DNA of 64,000 nt, taken from the NCBI GenBank assembly GCA_017549665.1, contig JAFYUD010000220.1:1-64000 (forward strand), given 5' to 3'. The position numbers and the translations under genes are program-made. Below are positions 48,964 through 63,822 of the stretch, piece by piece. The notes under the pieces were generated by a model. That model searched no databases and was not told the origin of the DNA. It worked only from the letters and a program-made list of their open reading frames with translations. Numbering within the stretch: the stretch's first letter is position 1; every line of letters begins with the position of its first letter. The DNA is from Clostridia bacterium. GTDB lineage: Bacteria; Bacillota_A; Clostridia; Oscillospirales; Acutalibacteraceae.

Positions 48964-49803
48964 ATGAGTAATAATCATGATGTTAACTGTAAAAAAATAA
49001 AAGAAGCGGTATGTATTGATACTGCAAGAATTTATGATTCCTGTGCTGACAAGGACTGTCTGGCAGACATAAGAGTCTATTTTACAGAAGAAGTCCAGAA
49101 TCTTATTGATTGCGCTACAACTGTAAGAGGAAGAGGAGCAGAAGTGATTAATGTTATTACTGATGTTGAAAGGATTCCGTTTAACAGAGGTTTTTATTCA
49201 ATTGATCTTACATTCTTCTTTTGTGTTAATCTTGATATTATAACCGGTCACAACTCCCCTGTTGAATCTGTTTCAGGTCTTGCTGTATTTACAAAAAAAT
49301 GCATTCTTTACGGTAGTGACGGTAATGTTAAAATATTTACATCAGAATTTAAAGAAAATGATAATGACGAACAAAAATCTGTTGTATCTTCAAATCCCAG
49401 AGCAAAAATTCAGGTGGCAGAGCCGATTTGTCTTGATGCAAGACTTTGCAGACCTTGTGATTGTTGCAACAACATTCCTGATGTGAGTTGCTGTATTCCT
49501 TCTTGTGTGAAAAGACAATTTGGCGGAAACTTCTGTGATTCGCACAATGAAAAAGCTGTAAGAATAACAATTGGATTGTTTTCAATTGTTCAGCTTGAAA
49601 GAGACGTTCAGATTCTTATTCCTGTATATGATTTCTGTATTCCCGATAAAGAATGTACTTGTGATAATGCGGCTGTAGATCCTTGTGATTCATTCAGAAA
49701 AATAAAATTTCCTGTAAATGAATTTTTCCCTGTAAAAGAAAATTCATCTGAATGCGAATTTGACATGAATTCATTTATAGAATCCTGTGGCTGTAAAAAA
49801 TAA
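48964..49803 (+). CDS. Cys-rich protein of unknown function
   Basis: The 279-residue protein contains about 25 Cys, many in CC, CxxC and CxC pairs (for example RLCRPCDCCNNIPDVSCCIP and ECTCDNAAVDPC), but also a hydrophobic beta-rich stretch (GFYSIDLTFFFCVNLDI). There is no signal peptide or membrane helix. I recall similar proteins as hypothetical proteins in Oscillospiraceae; some resemble spore-coat-like Cys-rich proteins, but I cannot assign it. The promoter is not obvious; a long hairpin in front of the gene includes its SD. A terminator at 49821-49856 follows. Confidence 0.7.
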   Translation: MSNNHDVNCKKIKEAVCIDTARIYDSCADKDCLADIRVYFTEEVQNLIDCATTVRGRGAEVINVITDVERIPFNRGFYSIDLTFFFCVNLDIITGHNSPVESVSGLAVFTKKCILYGSDGNVKIFTSEFKENDNDEQKSVVSSNPRAKIQVAEPICLDARLCRPCDCCNNIPDVSCCIPSCVKRQFGGNFCDSHNEKAVRITIGLFSIVQLERDVQILIPVYDFCIPDKECTCDNAAVDPCDSFRKIKFPVNEFFPVKENSSECEFDMNSFIESCGCKK

Positions 49804-49959: not shown

Positions 49960-51132
49960 ATGGATTTATCATCACTTTATAAAGTTTCTTACGGACTTTA
50001 TGTTTTAACTGCTTTTGACGGTGAAAAACATAACGGTTGCATTATCAATACTGCTATTCAACAAACATCTGTTGAGCCTGTTATGTTTTCTGTTACAGTC
50101 AGCAAAACAAATCTAACACATGACATAATCTTCAGAAGCAGAAAATTCAATCTCTCAGTTCTTGATCAGACTGCTGATTTTGAAATATTTAAGCATTTCG
50201 GATTCAACAGCGGCAGAAATACCGATAAAATCGGTTCATTCAGCAATATTGCTTATTCAGCAAACGGTCTCTCCTATGTCACAAAAAATGTCAATGCTAT
50301 GATTTCTGTCAATGTAAAAAACACCGTAGATCTCAATAGTCATACATTATTTATAGGTGAAGTAACACACTGCGAAGTATTATCTTCATTTCCTTCTGCT
50401 ACTTATGAATTTTATCATAAGAATATAAAACCCAAGGCGAACCAGAAAAACGAATCAGCCGGATGGAAATGCAAAATCTGCGGATATATTCATAATGATG
50501 AAAATCTTCCTGATGATTTTGTATGCCCTATATGCAAACATGGTGCTGCTGATTTTGAAAAAATATCAAATAATAATAAAAAAGGAGAAACTTCTATGGA
50601 ACTCAAAGGATCAAAAACTGAAAAAAATCTTATGGCTGCTTTTGCCGGTGAATCTCAGGCATATACCAAGTATACTTACTATGCTTCAAAAGCAAAAAAA
50701 GATGGCTATGTACAGATCGGCAATTTATTTGCAGAAACAGCCGGAAATGAAAAAGAACACGCAAAAATATGGTTTAAACTTCTTCATGACGGTATGCCCG
50801 GCACATTAGATAATCTTCTTGATGCTGCAAGCGGTGAAAATTATGAATGGACCGATATGTATGCAAAATTTGCTGATGATGCAAGAGAAGAAGGTTTTAA
50901 TCAGATAGCATATCTTTTTGACGAAGTTGCAAAAATTGAAAAAGAACACGAAGAAAGATACAGAAAACTTATTGAAAATATTGAAGGTGGTCTTGTATTC
51001 TCAAGAGATGGAGATAAAATCTGGAAATGTTCTAATTGCGGTCATATAGTTGTGGGTAAAGATGCTCCTGATGTATGTCCTGTATGTGCTCATCCTCAGG
51101 CATATTTTGAAATCAAAGCTGAAAACTATTAA
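49960..51132 (+). CDS. Fusion of flavin reductase, rubredoxin and rubrerythrin
   Basis: The 390-residue protein has four modules. Residues 1-155 are a flavin reductase (FMN-binding, split-barrel) domain of the type in high-molecular-weight rubredoxin. C171/C174/C189/C192 form a rubredoxin iron site. Residues 213-350 are a rubrerythrin diiron domain with the ligand motifs [18 protein letters not shown] and [10 protein letters not shown]357/C360/C373/C376 form a second, C-terminal rubredoxin site. Together they could pass electrons from NAD(P)H via FMN and rubredoxin to reduce peroxide. An internal ATG (50596) with an AAAGGAGA SD marks the rubrerythrin start. Expected to protect this anaerobe from oxygen or H2O2. 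Confidence 0.92.
50582..50598 (+). promoter_or_regulatory. Internal Shine-Dalgarno and ATG at the rubrerythrin start
   Basis: AAGGAGAAA (50582-50590) precedes ATG (50596-50598) with ordinary spacing, in frame, exactly where stand-alone rubrerythrins begin ([19 protein letters not shown]). This allows a separate rubrerythrin product; actual use is inferred. Confidence 0.65.
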
Positions 51133-51185: not shown

Positions 51186-52922
51186 TTACAAACTATTATC
51201 AGGAATATCTGAATCGGAAATGTCTTGAATATTCATATCCATTTTATGTTTTATATGATGATGGGAATTTTTTTTAGGATTTTTATCGAAACTATCTTCC
51301 TGCTCGTTTTCATCTTCACCATAACCATATCCGTATCCGTAATTATATCCGTAACCATATCCGTACTTATGTCCGTAACCATATCCGTACTTATGTCCGT
51401 AACCATATCCGTACTTATGTCCGTAACCATAACTCTTTTTACCGTATCCGTATTTTCGTTTACCATAGCCGTATTTACCGTATCCGTACTTGCCGCCGTA
51501 ATAATAACCACCATAACCTGAGAATCCGTCTTGTACGCAATTAAAAACAAAACCAAGGATTCTTGCAGAACTGAATGAGAAGTAATCAAGCATAACACGG
51601 ATTTTGTTAACGGAAGTGGAATCCTGTTTTACTACAAATAAAATCGTATCACAGAAATTACTTACAGCAACAGAATCAGATACTTCCCCAACAGGTGTTA
51701 TATTTACAAATATATAGTCAAAATTATGACGCAGATATTCAAAAAAAGGTATCAATATTGATTCGGAAATTTCAATATTTTTGTTTCCTGCAAAAAATAC
51801 ATAAAAATTGTTTTCCTGCAAATGAGAAACTGAGTTAAAATCGGGGTTTTTCTCTGTAAGTACATCAGAAATTGTTTTTTTATCAAAACAATCAAGGTAT
51901 TTCTGAAGCTTATTTTGTTTGAAATCAAAATCAACAACGGCAGTTTTTTTTCCTGCTATTGCAAGCGTGTTTGCAATATTGTAAGCAATTGTTGTTTTTC
52001 CTTCTCCGATTACAGGTGCTGTAATACCGATAATTTTTTCATCATTTATTAGATTACGCAATAATCTTTTTCTGAGAAGTCTGAATGATTCTTTGAATGT
52101 GGGATGCTTGTCGGATAACAGAACCATTCTATCTTTGTTTTTTTTGTCATTTGATTTTCTGTGAAAAATAACGTGAGGAATCTCAACAAAACATTTCTGA
52201 TTCAGAACATTCTGAAAATCTTCTTTTTTACGGATTGTATTTCTGAAAAATGCGTAAACACATATAAGACATAAACCGAGAGTTATACCGACAAGGGTCA
52301 TTATTATTGATGTTCTTAAAAAATTATTTGGTGTGTAGGGTTCTGTTGGTAATGATGGTTTTATAAGAATATTCAGATTAACATTTCCAACAACAAAAAC
52401 AGAAACATCAGGATAAACTTCAATAACTGCATTAACGATATCAAAAGCATCCTGTGCTGAATTACTTGTGACGGTAACTTTAAAAATGTTTGAATCGGGT
52501 GTAACAGCTTCAGCAGTAATTGTACCGTTGATGTAATCGGTATTCAACGAGTCTTTCAAGGCATTTCGCATCATACTTGTGTTAACTATATACGGAAATG
52601 TTTTTGAAAGTTGTGTAGCAGAAGCATTATCATAATAAGAAGCGAACACTGCTGTGCCTGATGAGTTATGAGTAACAGCTGTTACTGAAAATGAAACAGA
52701 AGACTGATACATCGGCACATAACTCTTATAGCTGATGACTGCTGTAAAAACACAGAAAATTAAGGCAAGAATAACAATAATATACCAAAATTTCCGTAAA
52801 CCTTTTGAAAAATCAACGGTAAAAACATTCACATCAAAAAAGACATTTGCATTCTGATTTTTGTTATCAGAAAATTCAGAATTATTTCCGGTTTTCTGAT
52901 TATTATAATAATTTTCACTCAT
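51186..52922 (-). CDS. Wzz-domain/BY-kinase-like protein with a degenerate ATPase and Tyr-Gly-rich tail
   Basis: The 578-residue protein has a Wzz chain-length region between two membrane helices (about residues 40-62 and 215-238) and a cytoplasmic BY-kinase-like domain. Walker A is intact (IGEGKTT), but the A' motif is VVDFDFKQ (usually ends DxR) and Walker B reads YIFVNITPV, with Asn for the usual Asp. The C-terminal tail carries about 25 Tyr in KYGYG and HKYGYGYG repeats, encoded in part by a 24-base tandem repeat (51349-51430). Such tails are autophosphorylation clusters in BY-kinases. The gene follows the canonical kinase directly (1-base overlap), so it may be its substrate. Last gene of the regulatory arm. 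Confidence 0.82.
   Translation of the reverse strand: MSENYYNNQKTGNNSEFSDNKNQNANVFFDVNVFTVDFSKGLRKFWYIIVILALIFCVFTAVISYKSYVPMYQSSVSFSVTAVTHNSSGTAVFASYYDNASATQLSKTFPYIVNTSMMRNALKDSLNTDYINGTITAEAVTPDSNIFKVTVTSNSAQDAFDIVNAVIEVYPDVSVFVVGNVNLNILIKPSLPTEPYTPNNFLRTSIIMTLVGITLGLCLICVYAFFRNTIRKKEDFQNVLNQKCFVEIPHVIFHRKSNDKKNKDRMVLLSDKHPTFKESFRLLRKRLLRNLINDEKIIGITAPVIGEGKTTIAYNIANTLAIAGKKTAVVDFDFKQNKLQKYLDCFDKKTISDVLTEKNPDFNSVSHLQENNFYVFFAGNKNIEISESILIPFFEYLRHNFDYIFVNITPVGEVSDSVAVSNFCDTILFVVKQDSTSVNKIRVMLDYFSFSSARILGFVFNCVQDGFSGYGGYYYGGKYGYGKYGYGKRKYGYGKKSYGYGHKYGYGYGHKYGYGYGHKYGYGYGYNYGYGYGYGEDENEQEDSFDKNPKKNSHHHIKHKMDMNIQDISDSDIPDNSL
51349..51430. repeat. 24-base tandem repeat inside the kinase tail
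   Basis: The unit ccgtaaccatatccgtacttatgt occurs three times exactly (51349-51420) with a partial fourth copy. On the minus strand it encodes the 8-residue unit HKYGYGYG. The unit length is a multiple of three, so copy-number change keeps the frame. Confidence 0.9.
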
Positions 52923-54328
52923 TAATTATTTACCTCACTACCGGAATTATTTTCAGTGACTGATGAGTCGGCAAATATTTTAGGAAGAATATGCACATCA
53001 TTGAAAATACAACCCTCAACCGAAGTTCCTGACTGGTTAAGCATATCAATCATATCATTAATTTCGGGAACAGGAGCTACATCCTGTCTTACAACAATCA
53101 GAGCAGCATCGATATTTGGAGAAATGATTTCAGCATCTGAAACAAGAGATGTAGGTGATGTATCAAAGATAACAATATCAAATTGTTCTTTTATTGCATC
53201 AACAAAATGTTCAAATCTTTTTGTGGACAACATTTCTGAACTGTTGCTGTATTTATGTTTTGAACACATAATATAAAGACCTGTTTTGTGTTCTTTAAAA
53301 ATTGCATTATTTATTGATGTATTACCTCTGAGAACTTCTCCGAGCCCTAATGATTCTTCAGGATCAACAGCATCAGAAAAGAATTTGAAAATAGCTGGTT
53401 TTCTGAGGTCAGCATCAACAAGGAGTGTTTTTCTGCCGAGTTTAGACATAGCAAGAGCGAGATTGACTGCTGCAGTTGATTTACCTTCATTTTCACCGCA
53501 ACTTGTAATCATCAGAGTTTTGATGTTTTTTGATTTGATATAGTAATCAAGTTTTAAAGCAGCAATTCTGAAAGTTTCTGAAAATCTGTAATTAATCAGA
53601 ATATTGGTTATCATCAGAGGTTCTTTTGAATGTGTGAGTTTTAATCTTGATTTGATAGTTTTATTTTTATTTTCGTGATAAATAACTGAAAACAATTTTG
53701 CGTCAAGCATTGAGTTGACATCAGATTCATTTTTAACTGTATCACGAAAATATGAGGTTGCGATAATAAAAAATAACACAACAGTAATCATTCCAAGAGG
53801 AATGATCTTATCAAACTGACCATATGAAATCGGATTCGACGGATATGACGGAACAACAGGAGGCGCTATAATATTTATAATCATATTATTGAAATTATAG
53901 TCTGTAATTTCATTATAATTATCAATGATAGCATTAAGTGTCACATAAGCATCAATAGGATTTGAACTTGTGTATGACATTGAAATCAGATTTGTTTCTG
54001 ATATCTGTTCAGCTGTGATTATACCGTCAACAGTATTTCCTGTAATATCACTGAGTTTTTCTCTGAAATATGTGCTTTGGAACATTTCCTGAAAAGCTGA
54101 TGCAGCTTCAATAGTTTTATTTAAACTTGAGAATGAGTAAAGCCCTGAATCTGTAGCTGCAATAGATATTGTTGTAGTACATTTGAATTCCGCTTTATAT
54201 GTAAAATCAAAATAGGCTCGTACGCCGAGAAAACCTGTTACAGCTGCAAGAAATATAATCCAGAGGTTTCTTATAATATCTCTGATTATTGTATAAAAAT
54301 TAACATAATCAAATCTTAATTCACGCAT
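52922..54328 (-). CDS. Wzz-domain/BY-kinase (CpsCD-like chain-length regulator and tyrosine kinase)
   Basis: The 468-residue protein has an N-terminal Wzz domain between two transmembrane helices (about residues 17-37 and 175-195) and a cytoplasmic BY-kinase domain with canonical Walker A (CGENEGKSTAAVNLALA), Walker A' (LLVDADLRKP) and Walker B (IVIFDTSPT). It lacks a Tyr-rich tail, ending in NNSGSEVNN. BY-kinases control chain length and export of exopolysaccharide by cycling phosphorylation, opposed here by the PHP phosphatase at 55245. It sits between the Ig-like protein and the degenerate kinase, with 1-base overlaps, so all are in one operon. Confidence 0.92.
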   Translation of the reverse strand: MRELRFDYVNFYTIIRDIIRNLWIIFLAAVTGFLGVRAYFDFTYKAEFKCTTTISIAATDSGLYSFSSLNKTIEAASAFQEMFQSTYFREKLSDITGNTVDGIITAEQISETNLISMSYTSSNPIDAYVTLNAIIDNYNEITDYNFNNMIINIIAPPVVPSYPSNPISYGQFDKIIPLGMITVVLFFIIATSYFRDTVKNESDVNSMLDAKLFSVIYHENKNKTIKSRLKLTHSKEPLMITNILINYRFSETFRIAALKLDYYIKSKNIKTLMITSCGENEGKSTAAVNLALAMSKLGRKTLLVDADLRKPAIFKFFSDAVDPEESLGLGEVLRGNTSINNAIFKEHKTGLYIMCSKHKYSNSSEMLSTKRFEHFVDAIKEQFDIVIFDTSPTSLVSDAEIISPNIDAALIVVRQDVAPVPEINDMIDMLNQSGTSVEGCIFNDVHILPKIFADSSVTENNSGSEVNN

Positions 54329-55185
54329 TAATTATCACCTCTGACAGCTACTGCAAGATTTGCTTCTGCAAGAATTTCCGGCTCAGCATTGGATGTTCTT
54401 TTTTCAACTCTCTGAACACGGTAAGTTATATAATAAACACCGGGTTTATCATAGTTGACATTGTTTTTTATATCAAACAAATAATCATAATTATCCCTGT
54501 AATCTTCATCAAAAAATTCAGAAGGATAAGATTTGACGTATTTCATAGGATCGATTTTAGTATCAGAATCAGTATATACAAGATATGTTGACAAATCAAT
54601 TGAATATCTGTATCTGGAAGAATAAACATAGGTATTAAGTGTTATTTCAGATGTAACACCTTTTGATGTTGTAACCCTGTATTTCACAGGATAAACACCC
54701 GGTAAAGATAGATCAAGCTGAGAATCCGTAACAACAATTCTGTTAGAAATATCACCATCCAACAAGTCGGATGCTTTTATTCCGTTAAGGAGATCAATTC
54801 TTGTTGCACCCGTATAATACACCTGTTGAGAATTTGCACTGAATACAGGATTACTGTAATCTGTATAAACAATATCTTTTTCAAGTTTTGATACATTATT
54901 ATCTGAGTCTGCAACAGCAAAAGTAATTTTTGCGTTATTTTTTCCGATAAAAGAAGAAATAGATTCAATAATTACTTTATCAGATAAATCACCGTCTTTA
55001 GAATCAAATGCAGTTACATATTTTAAAATTTCCTGTTCGTCGGAATTAACTGAAATTGAGATAATATCTGTATCGCATTTTATCTGAGGTGAATTATAAT
55101 CAGGTTTGTTTGTAACTCTGATATATAATGTAAATAAAATTATTAAAATAAATAAAATTGAAAAAAGTACTTTTAGAAATCTCAT
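54328..55185 (-). CDS. Membrane-anchored protein with Ig-like repeats
   Basis: The 285-residue protein has an N-terminal membrane helix (about residues 7-24). The external part contains two Ig-like, cadherin/DUF5011-type repeats recognisable by the phrases VTAFDSKDGDLSDKV and IKASDLLDGDISNRIVV, each followed by GxYPVKYRV-like or comparable strands. A third similar domain, less regular, fills the C-terminus. Such repeats mediate surface interactions. It is tightly inserted in the EPS regulatory operon, next to the Wzz/BY-kinase. The role could be linking the export machine to the wall; this is speculative. Confidence 0.75.
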   Translation of the reverse strand: MRFLKVLFSILFILIILFTLYIRVTNKPDYNSPQIKCDTDIISISVNSDEQEILKYVTAFDSKDGDLSDKVIIESISSFIGKNNAKITFAVADSDNNVSKLEKDIVYTDYSNPVFSANSQQVYYTGATRIDLLNGIKASDLLDGDISNRIVVTDSQLDLSLPGVYPVKYRVTTSKGVTSEITLNTYVYSSRYRYSIDLSTYLVYTDSDTKIDPMKYVKSYPSEFFDEDYRDNYDYLFDIKNNVNYDKPGVYYITYRVQRVEKRTSNAEPEILAEANLAVAVRGDN

Positions 55186-55244: not shown

Positions 55245-55928
55245 TCATTCAGAAACTTTATCAAGCGGATATCTGTCAAGCAGCCATTCATAAATATCAC
55301 TCATATCAGCATTTCGATTACTCGGACTATGACAATCAGAAGAAATAACGTGCACAAAATTATCTTCAAGCATTCTGATTGCAAGTTTCTGTGCTTTTTC
55401 ACCATATTTATTAAGCGGACTTCCCTTATTGATCTGAAATTTACATCCGATATCAATCAAATCATATAACAGATGATATGAATCTGAAAAAAAAGTGTAT
55501 CGTTCAGGATGTGCAATCAACGGAATATATCCGAATGACAACAATTGTTTGCAATAGCTTAAAACATTTTCAATTTTTTCATCAAATGTAAATTCTGTAA
55601 GGATATAACGAGAACCATTAATTGTTATTAATTCATTGTTAAAATGCAATTGAGGAATATTTGAATCAGCAAGAAGTTCAGAACCGAGAAAAACAGTTGC
55701 TGGAATTTTTTTCTCAGAAATCACATTTTTTAATTTTTTATATTTATCAATAATAATTTTTTTGTTGACATCTCGATATCCCTGATAATTATTATTGAAA
55801 TGAGGTGTTGCAGTGAGAATTGTAGTTCCGCTTTTAACAGCCTGTGATATCAATTCAAGAGCTTCGATATATGAATCCGCACCATCATCAACCTGCGGCA
55901 ATATATGACAATGTAAATCAATAAACAT
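55245..55928 (-). CDS. CpsB/YwqE-type tyrosine-protein phosphatase
   Basis: The 227-residue protein is a PHP-domain metallophosphatase. The metal-binding residues are visible: DLHCHILPQVDDGA at the start, TATPHF, a Glu in LGSELL, PLIAHPERY, and SSDCHS near the end. CpsB-type enzymes dephosphorylate BY-kinase tails and so regulate capsule or EPS synthesis. First gene of the minus-strand regulatory arm, divergent from the biosynthetic arm. Confidence 0.93.
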   Translation of the reverse strand: MFIDLHCHILPQVDDGADSYIEALELISQAVKSGTTILTATPHFNNNYQGYRDVNKKIIIDKYKKLKNVISEKKIPATVFLGSELLADSNIPQLHFNNELITINGSRYILTEFTFDEKIENVLSYCKQLLSFGYIPLIAHPERYTFFSDSYHLLYDLIDIGCKFQINKGSPLNKYGEKAQKLAIRMLEDNFVHVISSDCHSPSNRNADMSDIYEWLLDRYPLDKVSE

Positions 55929-56102: not shown

Positions 56103-57992
56103 ATGGATACATTAAAGAAAGAATCACTTTTTTACAACTTAAAATCTTTCTTTTTGGGTGTAGCAGATGTTATACTTATAAATTTTGTTTCTTTTTTTAC
56201 ATTGTTAGTCAGATTTGAATTCAATCTTTCACAACTCATCGATTCACAGTTTCTGTTTAATATCTTCAAATTTTCACCTCTTACAACACTTATTACAGTA
56301 ATAGTTTTTATTGCATTTAAATTATACCGAGGTATCTGGAAATATGCCGGCGTTGATGAATTCATAACCATTGCTGCTGCTTGTATGTGTTCAACAGCAA
56401 TCAATACTGTTATTCTGGTGATATTAAGATTTACGATCGCACTTAATTTCCCTAAAAGTTATCCTCTGATTTATTTCATATTCCTTCTCGGTGCAATTAC
56501 ATCTTTGAGATTTTCCTATCGTTTTGCTGGAAAAGTTAAAACAAATATAAAACAGTCAAACAAGCTTGATCGTGTAATGGTAATAGGTGCAGGAAGATCC
56601 GGAGCAAGTGTACTCAGAGAAATGCAGACAAGTCCTCATTCACGAGGAAAAGTTATCTGTATGCTTGATAATGATTCAAAAAAAATCGGAAAATATATTC
56701 ACGGAGTTAAAGTTGTAAACAATTGTGAACATATTCCTGAAATGGCGGAAAAATACAAAATTGATATAATTATCCTTGCAATTCCTTCTGCAACAAATTC
56801 AGAAAAGCGTGCAATTATTGACGAATGTCAGAAAACAAAATGTACACTTAATATTGTCCCGTCAATAACTCAGCTTACTAATGGTGAAGTACGACTTGAG
56901 CAGATAAGAAATGTTGAGATTGAAGACCTTCTCGGCAGAGACAGCATAAAAGTAGATATGTCTGAAATTAAAGAGTTCATTTCAGAAAAGACTGTTCTGG
57001 TTACCGGTGGCGGTGGCTCAATCGGTAGTGAATTATGCCGTCAGATTGCAAAATATCAGCCAAAAAAACTTGTTATCTTTGATATTTATGAAAACAGTGC
57101 CTATTCAATTCAACAGGAACTCAGAGCAAAACATCCTGAACTTAATCTTGATGTAATAATTGGGTCTGTCCGTGATATTCACAGAGTCGATAAACTTTTT
57201 GAAACCTACAAACCTGATATTGTATATCATGCCGCCGCACATAAGCATGTCCCTCTTATGGAAGATTCACCCAATGAGGCAATTAAAAACAATGTTTTCG
57301 GCACATATAATGTTGCAAATTCTGCAAACAAGTATGGTGTTTCAACATTCGTACTGATTTCCACAGACAAAGCTGTTAATCCTACAAACATAATGGGTGC
57401 ATCAAAACGACTTTGCGAAATGATTATTGAATGTTTCGCTAAAATATCAGAAACACGCTTTGTTGCCGTTCGTTTCGGCAATGTACTCGGCTCAAACGGA
57501 AGCGTAATTCCGCTTTTCAAAAAACAAATAGCCCGCGGAGGCCCTGTAACTGTTACACATAAAGATATAATACGTTATTTTATGACAATTCCCGAAGCAG
57601 TTTCTCTTGTTCTTCAGGCAGGTTATTATGCAAACGGCGGTGAAATATTTGTTCTTGATATGGGTCAGCCGGTCAAAATCGATGATCTTGCAAGACGAAT
57701 GATAAAACTTTCAGGCTTTGAGCCCGATATTGATATCAAAATCGAATACACAGGCCTCAGACCGGGTGAAAAACTATACGAAGAACTTCTTATGTCTGAA
57801 GAAGGTCTAAAGAAAACTAAAAATGATTTAATTTTCATAGGCAAGCTCTCAGATGTAAATGCAGACGAATTCTTCACCCAACTGGCTTATCTCAGAGATG
57901 AATGCTATACGGACGGATCAAACATCCGCAAATCTGTAAAAAAACTTGTTCCTACATATCATCCTGAAAATGAAGGTGTTTCTATTGTATAA
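56103..57992 (+). CDS. Membrane NDP-sugar 4,6-dehydratase (CapD/EpsC/PglF-like)
   Basis: The 629-residue protein has four N-terminal membrane helices (about residues 15-140), a first nucleotide-binding domain (VIGAGRSGASVLREM) and a C-terminal SDR domain. The SDR NAD-binding loop is VLVTGGGGSIGSELCRQI. The catalytic segment STDKAVNPTNIMGASKR is typical of UDP-GlcNAc 4,6-dehydratases, which make 4-keto-6-deoxy sugars for rare amino sugars such as bacillosamine or FucNAc. Opens the biosynthetic arm; followed by the sugar transferase with overlap. Confidence 0.92.
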   Translation: MDTLKKESLFYNLKSFFLGVADVILINFVSFFTLLVRFEFNLSQLIDSQFLFNIFKFSPLTTLITVIVFIAFKLYRGIWKYAGVDEFITIAAACMCSTAINTVILVILRFTIALNFPKSYPLIYFIFLLGAITSLRFSYRFAGKVKTNIKQSNKLDRVMVIGAGRSGASVLREMQTSPHSRGKVICMLDNDSKKIGKYIHGVKVVNNCEHIPEMAEKYKIDIIILAIPSATNSEKRAIIDECQKTKCTLNIVPSITQLTNGEVRLEQIRNVEIEDLLGRDSIKVDMSEIKEFISEKTVLVTGGGGSIGSELCRQIAKYQPKKLVIFDIYENSAYSIQQELRAKHPELNLDVIIGSVRDIHRVDKLFETYKPDIVYHAAAHKHVPLMEDSPNEAIKNNVFGTYNVANSANKYGVSTFVLISTDKAVNPTNIMGASKRLCEMIIECFAKISETRFVAVRFGNVLGSNGSVIPLFKKQIARGGPVTVTHKDIIRYFMTIPEAVSLVLQAGYYANGGEIFVLDMGQPVKIDDLARRMIKLSGFEPDIDIKIEYTGLRPGEKLYEELLMSEEGLKKTKNDLIFIGKLSDVNADEFFTQLAYLRDECYTDGSNIRKSVKKLVPTYHPENEGVSIV

Positions 57993-58596
57993 AATTATTA
58001 AGCGAATTATTGATTTTTTAGTTTCACTGTTTGCAATAACTATACTGTCCCCTGTCCTTATTATCACAGCCATAGCTGTTAAAACCGATTCAAAAGGACC
58101 TGTTTTATTTGTACAAAAACGCGTAGGTAAAGATAAAAATCTTTTTAATATGTACAAGTTCCGTTCTATGAGAACAGACACACCTCATGATATGCCTACG
58201 CATCTTCTTAATAATCCGGATGCTTTTATTACAAAAACAGGTAAATTCCTCAGAAAATCAAGTCTTGATGAACTCCCCCAGCTTTTCAATATCCTTAAAG
58301 GTGATATGTCTATTGTTGGTCCCCGCCCCGCACTCTGGAATCAGGATGATCTTATTGCCGAGCGCGATAAATATGGCGCTAATGACATAAGACCAGGTCT
58401 TACCGGCTGGGCTCAGGTAAACGGCAGAGATGAACTTGAAATAGATGTCAAAGCTAAGTTCGACGGTGAATACGTAGAAAGAATGAGTCTTCCTTTTGAT
58501 ATAAAATGTATCATAAATACAGCACTTCAGGTTATAAAACACGAAGGTGTTGTTGAAGGCGGAACAGGAACTCTCGAAAAATCAGGTAAGGATTAA
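57985..58596 (+). CDS. Undecaprenyl-phosphate sugar phosphotransferase (initiating transferase)
   Basis: This bacterial sugar transferase starts EPS repeat-unit synthesis by moving a sugar-1-phosphate to undecaprenyl phosphate. One N-terminal membrane segment (about residues 4-28) precedes the catalytic core with FVQKRVGKDKNLFNMYKFRSM and the catalytic Asp-Glu in SSLDELPQLFNILKGDMSIVGPRP. I choose the TTG at 57985 (MYKIIKRIIDF), with GAAGGTG six bases upstream and the usual family start; the first ATGs at 57946 and 57970 have no SD. About 203 residues, EpsL-like. Overlaps the dehydratase stop by 8 bases. Confidence 0.9.
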   Translation: MYKIIKRIIDFLVSLFAITILSPVLIITAIAVKTDSKGPVLFVQKRVGKDKNLFNMYKFRSMRTDTPHDMPTHLLNNPDAFITKTGKFLRKSSLDELPQLFNILKGDMSIVGPRPALWNQDDLIAERDKYGANDIRPGLTGWAQVNGRDELEIDVKAKFDGEYVERMSLPFDIKCIINTALQVIKHEGVVEGGTGTLEKSGKD

Positions 58597-58600
58597 TTAT

Positions 58601-59680
58601 ATGTCTAAAATTTTCATTGCAACAAATCATTCATACATGCTTTATCGATTCAGAAAAGAACTTATTGCAGAATTACTTAAAGATAATTCTGTTACATTAA
58701 GTATGCCTTTTGTCGGTCATGAAAAAGATTTTGAAGCAATGGGATGCAAATGCATTAATACTGAAATCGACCGCAGAGGTATTAATCCAAAAAATGATTT
58801 AAAACTTCTGCTTACTTATTTCAGGCAGATAAAAAGTGAAAAACCCGATAAAATTATTACATATTCAATAAAACCTAACATTTATTGTGGTTTTGTTGCA
58901 TCATTATTCAGAATTCCTTATTTTATAAATGTTCAGGGCCTTGGAACTGCATTTCAAAGCAAAAAATTAGCTCCTGTTGTTACTGCTATGTATAAAGCAG
59001 CCACAAGAAAAGCGAAAACTGTATTTTTTGAAAATACAGCCAACGCTCAGGAATTCATTGACAGAAAAATATTAAAAAAAGAACAGATTACTGTTCTTAA
59101 TGGTGCCGGGATTAATCTTGATACCTTTAAATTCTACGAATATCCTGATGATTCCGTCATAAAATTCCTTTATCTTGGCAGAATTATGAAAGAAAAAGGT
59201 ATTGACGAACTTTTTGATGCTTTCTCAAAGCTTAAAAATGAGTTCGGCGATAAAGTTTCTCTTGATATTGTCGGTTTTTTTGAAGACGAATATAAAGAAA
59301 TTATTGATAGTCTTTCAGAGAAAAAAATTATTAATTTCCACGGTTTTCAGACTGACACTATCCCCTATTATCATAATTGTAGCTGTGTTGTACTACCCTC
59401 TTATCACGAAGGTTTATCAAATGTGCTTCTTGAGGCCTCTGCAACAGGCAGACCTGTTATCACATCGGATATTCCCGGTTGTAAAGAAACCGTTGATAAT
59501 AAAAAGACAGGTTATTTAGTGAATGTAAAAGATTCTGATGACCTTTATGATAAAATGAAAAAGTTTGTTCTGCTTTCTGCTGAAGAAAAATCAATAATGG
59601 GCAAAAATGCAAGAACAAAAATGGAAAATGAATTTGACAAAAAACAGGTTGTAAAAAATACAATCGATAAAATTATTTAA
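58601..59680 (+). CDS. GT4-type glycosyltransferase
   Basis: The 359-residue protein has two Rossmann domains of a GT-B enzyme. The EPS-family signature SYHEGLSNVLLEASATGRPVI with the Glu pair is clear, as is FLYLGRIMKEKGIDEL. It resembles CapM/EpsD-type retaining transferases adding the second or later sugar to the lipid carrier. The start at 58601 (MSKIF) follows AAGGAT; the frame is open upstream inside the previous gene. Confidence 0.9.
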   Translation: MSKIFIATNHSYMLYRFRKELIAELLKDNSVTLSMPFVGHEKDFEAMGCKCINTEIDRRGINPKNDLKLLLTYFRQIKSEKPDKIITYSIKPNIYCGFVASLFRIPYFINVQGLGTAFQSKKLAPVVTAMYKAATRKAKTVFFENTANAQEFIDRKILKKEQITVLNGAGINLDTFKFYEYPDDSVIKFLYLGRIMKEKGIDELFDAFSKLKNEFGDKVSLDIVGFFEDEYKEIIDSLSEKKIINFHGFQTDTIPYYHNCSCVVLPSYHEGLSNVLLEASATGRPVITSDIPGCKETVDNKKTGYLVNVKDSDDLYDKMKKFVLLSAEEKSIMGKNARTKMENEFDKKQVVKNTIDKII

Positions 59681-59695
59681 GCGAGTGAACTTTTA

Positions 59696-60796
59696 ATGAC
59701 AACCGGTAAATATATATTCACCTTAATATGGCCGGCTGTTGTCGCATTACTCTACAATATGACCGGAGCAAAAAAAGTACCTATCCGTGTTCTTGGTAAA
59801 AACGAACCCAGAGTCGGATGGGGTTGGGTATTATTACTCGCTATTCCATTAATTATTGTTGCAGCACAACGAGGTTATTTTGCTGATACAACAGCTTATA
59901 TTATTTCTTTCAGAAATATGCCAGATTCATTATCAGAAATCGTTAGTTACATGCAGACTGTTCAAAAAGATGAATTATTCTCTTTTGTATCTGTTTTAAT
60001 AAAAGTATTTATTACAAAAAATTATGAAGTATATCTTGGAATTCTTGCGACCTTTCAGATGCTTGTCCTTGCCAAGATTTACAGAAAATACTCAACTGAC
60101 TTTTTTATGAGTATGTTTCTGTTTGTTGCATCAACTGATTATATTTCATGGATGTTTAATGGCTTGAGACAATTTACAGCTGTATGTATAATTCTTCTAG
60201 CATTTAATTTTATACTGACTAAGAAGTATTTATTTGCAATTCTTATTATTCTGTTTGCTTCATTTTTTCACGGTTCTGCTCTTCTTGTTATTCCATTTAT
60301 ATTTATCGTACAAGGCAAAGCCTGGAATAAAAAAACTCTTCTGTTCTTATTTGGAGTCATAATTGCTGTTGCTTTTGTTGATCAGTTTACAAATATACTT
60401 GACTCTGCATTAGCTGATACACAATATAAAAATGTTGTATCAGACTGGACACAAGGTCACGATGACGGTACAAATATTTTCAGAGTTCTTGTTTATTCTG
60501 TTCCGGCAATTATTTCACTCTACGGTAAACATACTATAGATAAAGCTGATAACAGATTGATTAATATTTGTACAAATATGTCAATTGCTTCAGCCGGTAT
60601 TTATGTTGTTTCAATGTTTACCAGCGGTATATATATCGGAAGATTACCGATTTATTTCTCTTTGTTTAGTTATATATTATTGCCGTGGGAAATTTCTCAT
60701 ATTTTTAGCAAAAACTCAAGCAAACTAATTTCTTTCATTCTATATGTCTGTTATATTGGATTCTTTTGTTATTCATTATTTATTACATGGGGGTAA
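59696..60796 (+). CDS. EpsG-family polysaccharide polymerase
   Basis: The 366-residue protein is polytopic (about 9-10 helices) with the EpsG/Wzy-like pattern, for example RGYFADTTAYIISFRNMPDS near the start and WMFNGLRQFTAVCIILLAFN in the middle. Members are thought to polymerise lipid-linked repeat units. A flippase (Wzx) gene is expected but not seen before the window ends. Confidence 0.88.
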   Translation: MTTGKYIFTLIWPAVVALLYNMTGAKKVPIRVLGKNEPRVGWGWVLLLAIPLIIVAAQRGYFADTTAYIISFRNMPDSLSEIVSYMQTVQKDELFSFVSVLIKVFITKNYEVYLGILATFQMLVLAKIYRKYSTDFFMSMFLFVASTDYISWMFNGLRQFTAVCIILLAFNFILTKKYLFAILIILFASFFHGSALLVIPFIFIVQGKAWNKKTLLFLFGVIIAVAFVDQFTNILDSALADTQYKNVVSDWTQGHDDGTNIFRVLVYSVPAIISLYGKHTIDKADNRLINICTNMSIASAGIYVVSMFTSGIYIGRLPIYFSLFSYILLPWEISHIFSKNSSKLISFILYVCYIGFFCYSLFITWG

Positions 60797-60805
60797 GAAT
60801 TTCTT

Positions 60806-61906
60806 ATGAGTCAACCATTAAGAGTTTTACATATTGTTACTTACATGGGACGCGGTGGACTCGAAACCATGATTATGAACTATTACAGGAATATTGACCG
60901 TTCAAAAGTTCAATTTGATTTTCTTGTACACAGAGATTTTAAAGCTGATTATGACGATGAAATTGAAAGTCTTGGAGGAAGAATTTATCGTATCAGTCAA
61001 TTAAATCCATTTTCAATTTCTTATTATAAAGAACTGAATAAATTCTTTTCTGAAAATCGATACAAAATTGTTCATTGTCATTTAGATTGCATGAGTGCAA
61101 TTCCTCTTTCTGTTGCAAAGAAATTCAATATACCTGTAAGAATTGCCCATTCACATACATCCTATCAAGATAAAAATTTTAAATTTATTATCAAAGCATT
61201 TGCTAAAAATTTTATTCACAAATATGCTACAAAATTATTTGCTTGCAGCGAGATTGCAGGAAAATGGATGTTTGGAAATCATAATTATGAGATTTTTAAC
61301 AATGCAATCGATACAAAAAAATATATATATAATCAAAATATACAATCAAAAGTAAAAAGTCAGTTTAATTTAAATAATAATTTTATCATAGGTCATGTTG
61401 GCAGGTTTAACCCTCCTAAAAACCATAATTTTCTTATTGACATTTTCTTTGAAGTATATAAAAAAGATAATACTGCAAAATTAGTTTTAGTTGGCAGTGG
61501 GGATCTTCAAAAAAACATTGAAAATAAAGTTAAAAATTATGGTATAACAAATAATGTGCTGTTTTTAGGCTCACGTGATGATGTTCATGAAATTCTTCAA
61601 GCATTTGATGTGTTTGTTTTTCCTTCATTATATGAAGGTTTTCCGGTAACATCTGTTGAAGCTCAAGCAGCAGGATTATCAGCTGTCTTATCTGATGCAA
61701 TTACAAAAGAATGCAAAATAAATGATAATGTAAAATTTTTATCATTAAACGATGCACCAAAAAAATGGGCAGATGAAATTTTAAAATTTAAGGATTATAG
61801 AAAAGTTTCATGTTCAGAAAAAATTTTAAAAGCTGGTTATGATATAATCGAAAAATCAAAATGGCTTGAAAACTATTATTTGGAAATGGATAATTATAAT
61901 GAATAA
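60806..61906 (+). CDS. GT4-type glycosyltransferase (EpsF-like)
   Basis: The 366-residue GT-B enzyme begins VLHIVTYMGRGGLETMIMNYYR, typical of EpsF-like family-4 transferases. The nucleotide-sugar-binding region is FPSLYEGFPVTSVEAQAAGL. It uses an NDP-sugar to extend the lipid-linked repeat unit. From here on the DNA is visibly more A/T-rich, with many AAA and AAT codons. Confidence 0.9.
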   Translation: MSQPLRVLHIVTYMGRGGLETMIMNYYRNIDRSKVQFDFLVHRDFKADYDDEIESLGGRIYRISQLNPFSISYYKELNKFFSENRYKIVHCHLDCMSAIPLSVAKKFNIPVRIAHSHTSYQDKNFKFIIKAFAKNFIHKYATKLFACSEIAGKWMFGNHNYEIFNNAIDTKKYIYNQNIQSKVKSQFNLNNNFIIGHVGRFNPPKNHNFLIDIFFEVYKKDNTAKLVLVGSGDLQKNIENKVKNYGITNNVLFLGSRDDVHEILQAFDVFVFPSLYEGFPVTSVEAQAAGLSAVLSDAITKECKINDNVKFLSLNDAPKKWADEILKFKDYRKVSCSEKILKAGYDIIEKSKWLENYYLEMDNYNE

Positions 61907-62804
61907 ACCATTTATTACAGTATTTACTCCTGCATATAACAGGGCTCATACTTTAGGAAGAACATATCAATCGTTATGTTCTCAAAATAATAAAAATTTC
62001 ATATGGCTTATAATTGACGATGGATCTACAGATAACACAAAACTTCTTGTAGATTCCTGGATTACAGAACAAAAAAGTTTTATTATTGAATACATATACA
62101 AAGAAAATGGTGGTATGCATACTGCTCATAATGTTGCGTATCAAAACATAAAAACTGAGCTAAATGTATGTATTGATTCTGATGATATGTTAGCTTCAGA
62201 TGCTATAGAATTGATATGGCAAAAATGGTGTACGATAAAAGATGATAAAAAATATGCTGGTATTATTGGACTTGATGCAAATTTCAACAATTATCTTATA
62301 GGAACGGATTTAACTTTATATCCGGAGTCTACAACTTTATCAGAATTTTATGCAAAAGGTGGCAAGGGTGATAAGAAGCTAGTTTATCGAACTGAAATCA
62401 TAAATTCTTATCCGGAATATCCTATATTTGATAATGAAAAATATGTTGCTTTAGCATATAAATACAAATTAATTGATCAAGATTACAAATTAGCAACTTT
62501 AAATAAAGTGCTTTGCAATGTTGAATATCAGGCTGATGGCTCAAGTGCAACCATGTGGAAGCAATATTTAAAAAATCCAAAAGGATTTGCTTTTTGGAGA
62601 AAGATTTGTATGCAATACCCTACCAGCACTAAGAGATTGTGTGTTGACTGTATTCACTATATATCTGAAAGTATTATTGCCAAGGATATAAATTTTATAA
62701 AAAAATCTCCAAAAAAATTATTAACTTTTTTGTGTGTTCCATTAGGTTATGCGTTTGCTGTTTATACAATTTTAAAGAATTTTTCGAGGTCACATTATGA
62801 ATGA
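61899..62804 (+). CDS. GT2-family glycosyltransferase
   Basis: The 301-residue protein is a GT-A fold enzyme: ITVFTPAYNRAHTLGRTYQS, LIIDDGSTDNT and a CIDSDDML metal-binding DxD. The start at 61899 (MNKPF) overlaps the previous stop by 8 bases; the frame upstream lacks support. The C-terminal 100 residues may bind the acceptor. Acceptor and donor are unknown. Confidence 0.9.
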   Translation: MNKPFITVFTPAYNRAHTLGRTYQSLCSQNNKNFIWLIIDDGSTDNTKLLVDSWITEQKSFIIEYIYKENGGMHTAHNVAYQNIKTELNVCIDSDDMLASDAIELIWQKWCTIKDDKKYAGIIGLDANFNNYLIGTDLTLYPESTTLSEFYAKGGKGDKKLVYRTEIINSYPEYPIFDNEKYVALAYKYKLIDQDYKLATLNKVLCNVEYQADGSSATMWKQYLKNPKGFAFWRKICMQYPTSTKRLCVDCIHYISESIIAKDINFIKKSPKKLLTFLCVPLGYAFAVYTILKNFSRSHYE

Positions 62805-63822
62805 ACAAATATTAGCTGTTATAATACCTGCATATAATTCAGGTTTATATATATCAGATGCTTTAAGATCTATACAAAATCAACCGTCTAAAGATATAAA
62901 GATAATTGTCGTTAATGATGGTTCTACTGATAACACAAAAAACATTGTAAATGAAAAAATAAAACATGATAGTCGAATTGTTCTTATTAATCAACAGAAT
63001 CAAGGTGTTTCCGTTGCAAGAAATACTGGTATTGAATATTGTATACAACACGGTTTTAAATATGTAGCGTTTTTAGATTCGGACGATCTATGGTTTGATA
63101 ATTTTTACACCAACAAAATAAAATTGCAAATATTTAATGGTGACCATGATCTATTGCATTATAATTATTTAATGGTTAATAGTAACATAACAAGAGCAAA
63201 AAAACATAACGGAAGTTTTGCTAGTTATATATATAAAATTGAAATTATTCAGAGATTTAATATCCGATTTCCTGAAGGCATTGGAATTAATGAAGATGGG
63301 ATTTTTCATTATATATATTCCACATATTCAAAAACCTGCGAAAATAAAGAATATATATTTATGTATAGGAATAACCATTCATCTACATCACATAATCAAT
63401 TTAATGTGTATAATAAATATTTTAATCATGCTATTAAAGCATGGGAATTTGGTGAACATTATTTTAAGAATAATAACATAAGCAATTCAGAAAAGAATAT
63501 AAATTATTGCAGAATAATGCAAAAAACACTTATAGCAGAATTTATTCAACAGAGTATAATTAATGGTTTTAGTTACAAAAAAATTCAAGAATTAATTAAT
63601 CAATCTCAATTCCTTGATATATATTCAGATAACAATATTTGGTTAGATGAACAAAGCAAAAATATTATATTATTATTTAAGGCACGAAATATAAAATTTT
63701 ATTTCAAAAACAGAATAAAAGGATTAATTTTTAAAATTACAAAAAAAACAAACATTTTAAAATTTTTTGATAAAAAATATTATCCTATAGATTTAAAATA
63801 TTGTTTATTTAATAAGTTTTGA
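62797..63822 (+). CDS. GT2-family glycosyltransferase
   Basis: The 341-residue GT-A enzyme has VIIPAYNSGLYISDALRSI, IVVNDGSTDNT, VSVARNTGI and FLDSDDLW with the DxD. The sequence is rich in Ile, Asn, Lys and Phe, reflecting strong A/T bias. The C-terminal half, rich in basic residues, is unlike its neighbours. It overlaps the preceding gene by 8 bases. Confidence 0.9.
   Translation: MNEQILAVIIPAYNSGLYISDALRSIQNQPSKDIKIIVVNDGSTDNTKNIVNEKIKHDSRIVLINQQNQGVSVARNTGIEYCIQHGFKYVAFLDSDDLWFDNFYTNKIKLQIFNGDHDLLHYNYLMVNSNITRAKKHNGSFASYIYKIEIIQRFNIRFPEGIGINEDGIFHYIYSTYSKTCENKEYIFMYRNNHSSTSHNQFNVYNKYFNHAIKAWEFGEHYFKNNNISNSEKNINYCRIMQKTLIAEFIQQSIINGFSYKKIQELINQSQFLDIYSDNNIWLDEQSKNIILLFKARNIKFYFKNRIKGLIFKITKKTNILKFFDKKYYPIDLKYCLFNKF

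Follow-up and report, generated by a model that had tools for sequence, protein, structure and literature searches.

BY-kinases, the tyrosine kinases of bacteria, are understood as homo-octamers in which each subunit is both enzyme and substrate, two roles that are hard to separate by mutation. Here, we describe a locus in which they may have separated naturally. In a 64,000-nucleotide stretch of DNA from a Clostridia bacterium (contig JAFYUD010000220.1, positions 1 to 64,000 of the forward strand; hereafter the window), two adjacent genes encode proteins that join a Wzz/CpsC-like membrane part to a BY-kinase domain. Protein A retains the catalytic motifs and has no tyrosine tail, while protein B carries an Asn in place of the Walker B Asp and ends in a long tail rich in Tyr and Gly.

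Among described systems, the Wzc-type polysaccharide co-polymerases (PCP-2a; Wzc, Etk, VpsO, BceF) come closest: they, too, fuse a Wzz-like part to a P-loop tyrosine kinase and carry a C-terminal Tyr cluster, and phosphorylation of a subunit's tail by its neighbour is the published model. According to passages of two studies, the Wzc octamer assembles while its tails are unphosphorylated, each lying in the active site of a neighbour, and falls apart as the tyrosines become phosphorylated one after another (PMC11986026, PMC8285477). Different here is that two paralogous single-chain subunits are encoded, and that the window splits the active site (A) from the tail (B). The CapA/CapB and CpsC/CpsD systems (PCP-2b) share with the window a capsule-type cluster with a PHP phosphatase, and profile matches add to the likeness, A matching TIGR01007 (CpsD type) and B matching TIGR01006 (CpsC type) and TIGR01007 below the cut-offs; whereas those systems split the membrane part from kinase and tail, A and B each carry both a membrane part and a kinase domain. 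BY-kinase-like proteins devoid of catalytic residues have also been described in polysaccharide pathways, namely EcpK of Myxococcus and HfsB of Caulobacter. In the relevant sections of PMC12004946, EcpK is presented as lacking a Tyr tail and is proposed to act independently of phosphorylation on a membrane partner without a kinase domain, and HfsB likewise, whereas B keeps its tail and its nucleotide-binding residues and has an intact kinase as its partner. Finally, S. aureus (CapB1/CapB2) and B. subtilis (PtkA/PtkB) each possess two BY-kinase paralogues, one of them inactive or unproven, and a pseudokinase role alongside CapB2 and PtkA has been suggested for CapB1 and PtkB (sections of PMC3795738 and PMC4205851); there, however, each paralogue has its own membrane activator, and these sections report no reciprocal split of tail and active site. 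In the literature searched, consisting of openly licensed papers, we found no pair of paralogues that divide tail and active site between them.

A first-pass annotation of the window, made from the letters alone, had described the first kinase as canonical at Walker A, A' and B and devoid of a Tyr cluster, and this holds: the motifs read CGENEGKST, LLVDADLRKPA and IFDTSP, and none of the 23 residues behind the kinase domain is a Tyr. When aligned by sequence to the VpsO, CapB and BceF chains, A has all catalytic residues in place, its Walker B loop reading DTSP instead of the usual DTPP, and it scores above the cut-off of TIGR01007 (130.8 bits, cut-off 108.05). With a Wzz-like part (PF02706, 26.8 bits, cut-off 25.5) joined to its kinase domain, it has the architecture of a PCP-2a protein. 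Judged by its catalytic motifs, A is an intact BY-kinase. The second kinase had been credited with about 25 tyrosines in its tail, and there are 26 among 113 residues. Both of the catalytic changes reported for it were likewise recovered, namely VNITP with Asn407, which in a sequence alignment falls on the Walker B Asp of Wzc, and DFDFKQNK, in which both Asp (331 and 333) are kept and the following Arg-Lys-Pro is lost. B remains below the cut-off of TIGR01007 (80.2 versus 108.05 bits), and its only Wzz-like match is to TIGR01006, at 61.6 bits against a cut-off of 296.

One feature had gone unmentioned: the EX2RX2R motif is intact in B (KESFRLLRKR), and its counterpart in A (ETFRIAAL) lacks the third Arg. 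In CapB, as described in part of PMC3795738, one half of the octamer interface is formed by EX2RX2R and the other by the Tyr cluster; B would therefore hold both interface halves, and A the intact active site. As to the ends of the two proteins, tails in the clade of B mostly close with an acidic [DE]IPDN-like motif (window 51189-51220), and C-termini in the clade of A mostly with a short motif like [ST]EV (window A, around 52925-52940); either might be a docking site. A protein near-identical to B (P0001) is 8 residues, or one 24-bp repeat, shorter, and the length of the tail seems to change by repeat slippage.

Is this arrangement an accident of one genome? Among the best 120 of 4206 homologues of B, the Walker B position holds Asn in 18, which form the window's clade, and Asp in 101, and is missing from one fragment (P0015). 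The 18 Asn-type proteins are 53-99% identical to B in the alignment (47% by BLAST for P0017), and Lys309, Asp331, Asp333, Asn407 and the EX2RX2R residues are each found in 19 of 19 rows, that is, in B and these 18. Because Asn, Lys and the two Asp are invariant at identities down to 53%, the Asn looks like a selected replacement and not plain decay, and nucleotide binding is probably kept. The first-pass annotation had named homologues regaining the Asp as contrary evidence; every clade member among these 120 that reaches the motif (18 of 18) has Asn, and a sister group (L003, L020) has Asp, which on the tree was more likely kept than regained. On the side of A, the best 120 of 1362 homologues are all canonical at the four catalytic positions, and the 37 nearest rows (P0121-P0157, 50-100% identical, P0121 being the window's own A) have canonical K/D/D/D and 0-2 Tyr C-terminal to the domain; all 37 of them lack the third Arg of EX2RX2R. 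The arrangement is not a one-genome accident, and this conservation, together with the recurring pairs described below, rules out an isolated oddity. P0088, which has Thr for the Walker A Lys and Asn for an A' Asp, and the A-type protein P0190, with 2 Tyr, agree in the length of their longest contig (33140) and may represent an additional case; they stand outside our counts.

The same alignment bears on whether the kinase domain of B is simply decaying under relaxed selection, with its tail a leftover or a low-complexity expansion. The array of 24-bp repeats and the length difference to P0001 would fit, as would the A' Arg position (335), which varies freely across the 19 rows (K in 12, N in 3, and R, I, M and G in one each). 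Such decay, however, accords poorly with an invariant Asn in place of mixed residues, with the invariant Lys, Asp, Asp and EX2RX2R, and with the long Tyr tail present in all 18 clade homologues that reach it, and we consider it very improbable.

To survey whether the pairing recurs, as the first-pass annotation had proposed, genomes were searched with profiles (1,828 genome searches, many genomes more than once), and part of the listed loci was retrieved. Since the search profiles represented the B type and the tailless-A type, frequencies among the pairs are not population frequencies. A pair was defined as two same-strand kinase genes at most 2.5 kb apart, and 86 distinct pairs were present among the 128 retrieved loci with a kinase open reading frame (ORF), four MAG loci included; one (L163), whose B is truncated by the contig end ahead of its Walker B motif, was dropped, and the window was added, giving 86 again. 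They are drawn from four Clostridia metagenome-assembled genomes (MAGs), the window and further genomes of the same class. The B tails of L003 and L123 are cut by contig ends, their Tyr counts being lower bounds, and that of L119 contains undetermined bases. At five loci (L055, L062, L063, L123 and L124) the B tails are very long, with 32 to 77 Tyr, and the partner A also has 19-24.

A tree of the 172 paired proteins splits exactly into A and B (SH-aLRT 99; 100 with 54 pairs and 100 with 72). With 40 unpaired kinase ORFs added, one group comprises the 86 A proteins plus one unpaired kinase and another the 86 B proteins plus two (support 96 each). Distances among A proteins correlate with those among B proteins at r 0.94, the best of 2000 permutations reaching 0.15 (72 pairs). 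On this phylogenetic evidence, A and B represent two old lineages that have been passed on jointly. A single tandem duplication as the origin of the pair was considered and withdrawn, as the other 37 of the 40 unpaired proteins take up positions intermediate between the two groups; the tree being unrooted, the pair may have begun with a duplication or with the joining of two separate lineages.

How are tails and active sites distributed over these pairs? For each protein, we scored the Tyr behind the domain and four residues (Walker A Lys, two A' Asp, Walker B Asp), a tail counting as lost at 3 Tyr or fewer, a limit chosen after the data had been seen. In 68 of the 86 pairs both subunits are intact and tailed. 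A is tailless and B catalytically dead by these residues, though tailed, in eight pairs; in eight others A is tailless and both subunits are catalytically intact. Each of the two remaining combinations occurs once: both subunits dead and tailless (L097), and a dead, tailed A with an intact, tailless B (L110). With two intact, tailed kinases making up most sampled pairs, the window represents a derived, asymmetric state, and the pairing itself reaches further than the first-pass annotation had proposed.

Of the 17 pairs with a tailless A, 9 have a dead B, as against none of the remaining 69 (Fisher 5e-8, descent not corrected for). Counted over subunits, catalytic loss tracks loss of the partner's tail (11/19 versus 0/153) and is unlinked to loss of the own tail (2/19 versus 9/153, p 0.35). 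A broad criterion, for which the second Pro of DxPP is required as well, gives a degenerate B in 15/17 versus 0/69 pairs; with a limit of 2 Tyr, applied to 72 pairs, the figures are 9/15 versus 0/57 (strict) and 14/15 versus 1/57 (broad). The 40 unpaired kinases, serving as a control, all have at least 5 Tyr behind the domain, none being tailless; a single one (L086) deviates among the catalytic residues, at the first A' Asp. The losses in the pairs are as they should be if each active site acts on the tail of the partner. If A and B are neighbours in a ring, each active site would see the tail of the partner, and loss of the tail of A would free the active site of B to decay, as is observed, whereas in a homo-ring the loss of a tail should relax the active site of the same protein, which is not observed. 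That each subunit acts on its own tail is disfavoured, own-tail loss and own catalytic loss not being associated.

B might also still be an active autokinase that Asn407 and the altered A' merely slow. An Asp-to-Asn change is mild, and the invariance of the Walker A Lys and of both A' Asp in the clade makes retained nucleotide binding likely. The Asp, however, is found in the other 101 of the best 120 B homologues reaching the motif and in 79 of the 86 paired B proteins (65 of 72 in the smaller set and all 14 of those added to it), and its loss coincides with the loss of the partner's tail, so that we hold residual autokinase activity to be quite unlikely.

Our favoured reading, in which we have fair rather than firm confidence, is that A and B are co-inherited subunits of a heteromeric co-polymerase/kinase, with A phosphorylating the tail of B and the CpsB-type phosphatase resetting it. 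The EX2RX2R helix and the Tyr-Gly tail of B would dock on A, the tyrosines of B entering the active site of A to be phosphorylated step by step, and the phosphatase would strip the phosphates from the tail again; this cycle may drive the opening and closure of a mixed A/B ring that surrounds the polymerase, so setting chain length. In most sampled relatives both subunits, tailed and active, would probably serve each other. In the lineage of the window, A might have lost its tail, leaving the active site of B without a substrate and B free to decay catalytically; B would then have become a nucleotide-binding, non-catalytic subunit specialised as a phospho-acceptor, with Lys309, Asp331 and Asp333 kept. 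Today's window would have A as the sole enzyme and B as the sole acceptor, whose two dozen tyrosines could provide a long count before the ring opens.

A division of labour between the two kinases had already been suggested in the first-pass annotation. The division gains support from the cross-wise losses and from the lack of another strong BY-kinase match in five of six genomes searched (see below); phosphorylation of the tail of B by A, and a scaffold role for B, we would retain as predictions. If A and B do form a mixed complex with naturally split roles, then neighbour phosphorylation, tail length and ring opening would become separately testable, a heteromeric class would be added to the co-polymerases, and there would be a second kind of BY pseudokinase, one acting as a phospho-acceptor and not as a phosphorylation-independent scaffold.

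The latter kind of pseudokinase is itself a candidate explanation: B might only bind, shaping or activating A or the membrane ring, with phosphorylation of its tail beside the point. B has lost a catalytic residue from an otherwise conserved domain, and binding-only BY pseudokinases have been described (in part of PMC12004946). Yet EcpK lacks all Walker motifs as well as a Tyr tail and has a partner without a kinase domain, whereas B departs from this description on each count, since it keeps Walker A, its nucleotide-binding residues and a long Tyr tail, is encoded near a tyrosine phosphatase gene and has the intact kinase A as its partner. We thus think a purely binding role for B unlikely.

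How many independent events underlie the cross-pattern? Parsimony on the pair tree indicates that catalytic loss in B arose four times, in the window clade, in L047 and L048 (both without the Walker A Lys), in L092 (second A' Asp lost) and in L097. All four origins lie in lineages reconstructed with a tailless A, and such lineages account for 24% of branch length. Phylogenetically independent contrasts for loss in B, computed over 72 pairs, run in the expected direction or show no difference, none being opposite; of the six contrasts that start from tail loss in A, four agree and two show no difference (p 0.125), and for catalytic loss in A there are two only (p 0.5). The cross-pattern is strong in counts and weak in independent events (4 to 5), which are too few to carry a test corrected for descent, a sign test requiring at least six contrasts with differing states to reach 0.05.

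Several further observations count against a heteromeric kinase with divided roles. The contrasts for loss in B are few, with 4 under the strict criterion (median p 0.25) and 5 under the broad one (median p 0.06; 72 pairs). L091 and L119 combine a tailless A with a canonical B, which fits a loss of the tail first, yet also speaks against a tight link. The four origins include L097 (1886-4657), where both subunits are without motifs and tails and whose genome (G473) also holds a canonical pair (L087). Six pairs with a tailless A (L022, L023, L025, L031, L038 and L039) are degenerate only under the DxPP criterion, which, like the 3-Tyr limit, was chosen after looking. Asn at Walker B need not abolish activity. 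The EX2RX2R asymmetry is not special to the window: among 72 pairs the third position is Arg in 14 of the A proteins and basic (Arg or Lys) in 63 of the B proteins, so that A is without this Arg in 58 of the 72, many of them with a tailed A. Lastly, one genome with a degenerate B (G004) carries a third BY-kinase, L086 (3558-5951, minus strand), a single-chain protein of about 800 amino acids.

With L086 in view, another kinase might phosphorylate the tail of B, with A acting on other substrates. L086 has its own Tyr tail (11 Tyr behind the domain), though a Gly at the first A' Asp. The BY-kinase profile TIGR01007 was run against six draft genomes of unstated completeness in which B is degenerate, two more with a strictly degenerate B (G613 and G473) lying outside this search, and in five of the six no further BY-kinase stood out: neither G001, G002 and G266 (Asn type) nor G226 and G138 (Walker A Lys lost) has a strong match beyond the A/B pair. 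The remaining matches score at most 61 bits; their frames span 54 to 348 residues, and we regard them as MinD/ParA-like or chance pieces, four of them (L015-L018) having been inspected; in G138, the degenerate B itself scores at the MinD/ParA level (33 bits). A role for such an additional kinase therefore appears highly improbable to us.

Beyond the window, there could be a long-standing two-subunit kinase class of Clostridia in which the paralogues alternate in the ring and each site phosphorylates only the tail of the partner, several lineages having collapsed into a pure kinase and a pure substrate, the window being one end product, and one lineage perhaps having done so in mirror image (L110). 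We offer this generalisation tentatively, as falling just short of what we would call probable. At L110 (2996-5570), the possible mirror case, A is degenerate with 7 Tyr, and B is canonical and tailless. This B ends about 100 bases before the contig end, with no Tyr tail in any frame behind its stop; the stretch from A' to Walker B is also shortened in its A, and the contig carries a canonical pair (L109) at a distance of about 8 kb. L110 is no more than suggestive as a mirror case.

Turning to the neighbourhood, the genes on the minus strand of the window run in the order PHP phosphatase, Ig-like (immunoglobulin-like) protein, A, B, with A upstream of B (Table 1). A and B share one base, within TAATG, and the Ig-like gene likewise overlaps A by a single base. 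A LytR-CpsA-Psr protein is encoded further left in the window, and from its gene content the locus looks like a Wzy-type capsule or exopolysaccharide cluster.

Table 1. Positions of genes and motifs at the A/B locus, in window coordinates.
Feature	Positions	Strand	Remarks
CpsB/CapC-type PHP tyrosine phosphatase	55245..55928	-	PF19567, 5.6e-51
Ig-like (PF16403) protein, immediately upstream of A	54328..55185	-	profile match
Protein A: Wzz/CpsC-like membrane part and BY-kinase domain, canonical, no Tyr tail	52922..54328	-	468 amino acids
A, counterpart of EX2RX2R, FSETFRIAALK	53552..53584	-	third Arg replaced by Ala
A, Walker A, TSCGENEGKST	53474..53506	-	position computed from gene start
A, Walker A', LLVDADLRKPA	53393..53425	-	position computed
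A, Walker B, DIVIFDTSPTS	53147..53179	-	position computed
Protein B: Wzz/CpsC-like membrane part and degenerate BY-kinase domain, Tyr-Gly tail	51186..52922	-	578 amino acids
B, EX2RX2R interface motif, intact, FKESFRLLRKR	52065..52097	-	residues 276-286
B, Walker A, intact, TAPVIGEGKTT	51990..52022	-	residues 301-311; Lys309
B, Walker A', AVVDFDFKQNK	51909..51941	-	residues 328-338
B, Walker B with Asn407, DYIFVNITPVG	51687..51719	-	residues 402-412; Asn407 codon 51702-51704
B, tail, ending SDSDIPDNSL	51189..51527	-	residues 466-578
24-bp tandem array within the B tail coding sequence	51334..51431	-	4.1 copies
Divergent polysaccharide genes: CapD-like dehydratase, initiating sugar transferase, EpsG-family protein, four glycosyltransferases	56103..63822	+	

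The four MAG loci all have phosphatase, Ig-like gene, A and B in this order, three of them being of the Asn type and one (L003) of the Asp type. In a set of 71 pair loci, 43 have at least 1 kb of flank upstream of A, and 42 of these place an Ig-like gene immediately before it; eight of the nine proteins behind the Ig-like profile came from counted loci, and without those eight the figure is 34 of 35. The Ig-like gene is apparently a constant partner of the kinase pair. A same-strand phosphatase is present in 17 of 21 pair loci with at least 2.2 kb upstream of A, and L047 and L048 show the order B, phosphatase, Ig-like gene, A. Downstream of B, two plus-strand genes have relatives near the pair in L002: one (49960-51132) encodes a 390-residue protein with a flavin-reductase-like domain and rubrerythrin- and rubredoxin-like parts, its counterpart in L002 being a close relative, and the other (48964-49803) a Cys-rich protein of 279 residues with no Pfam match.

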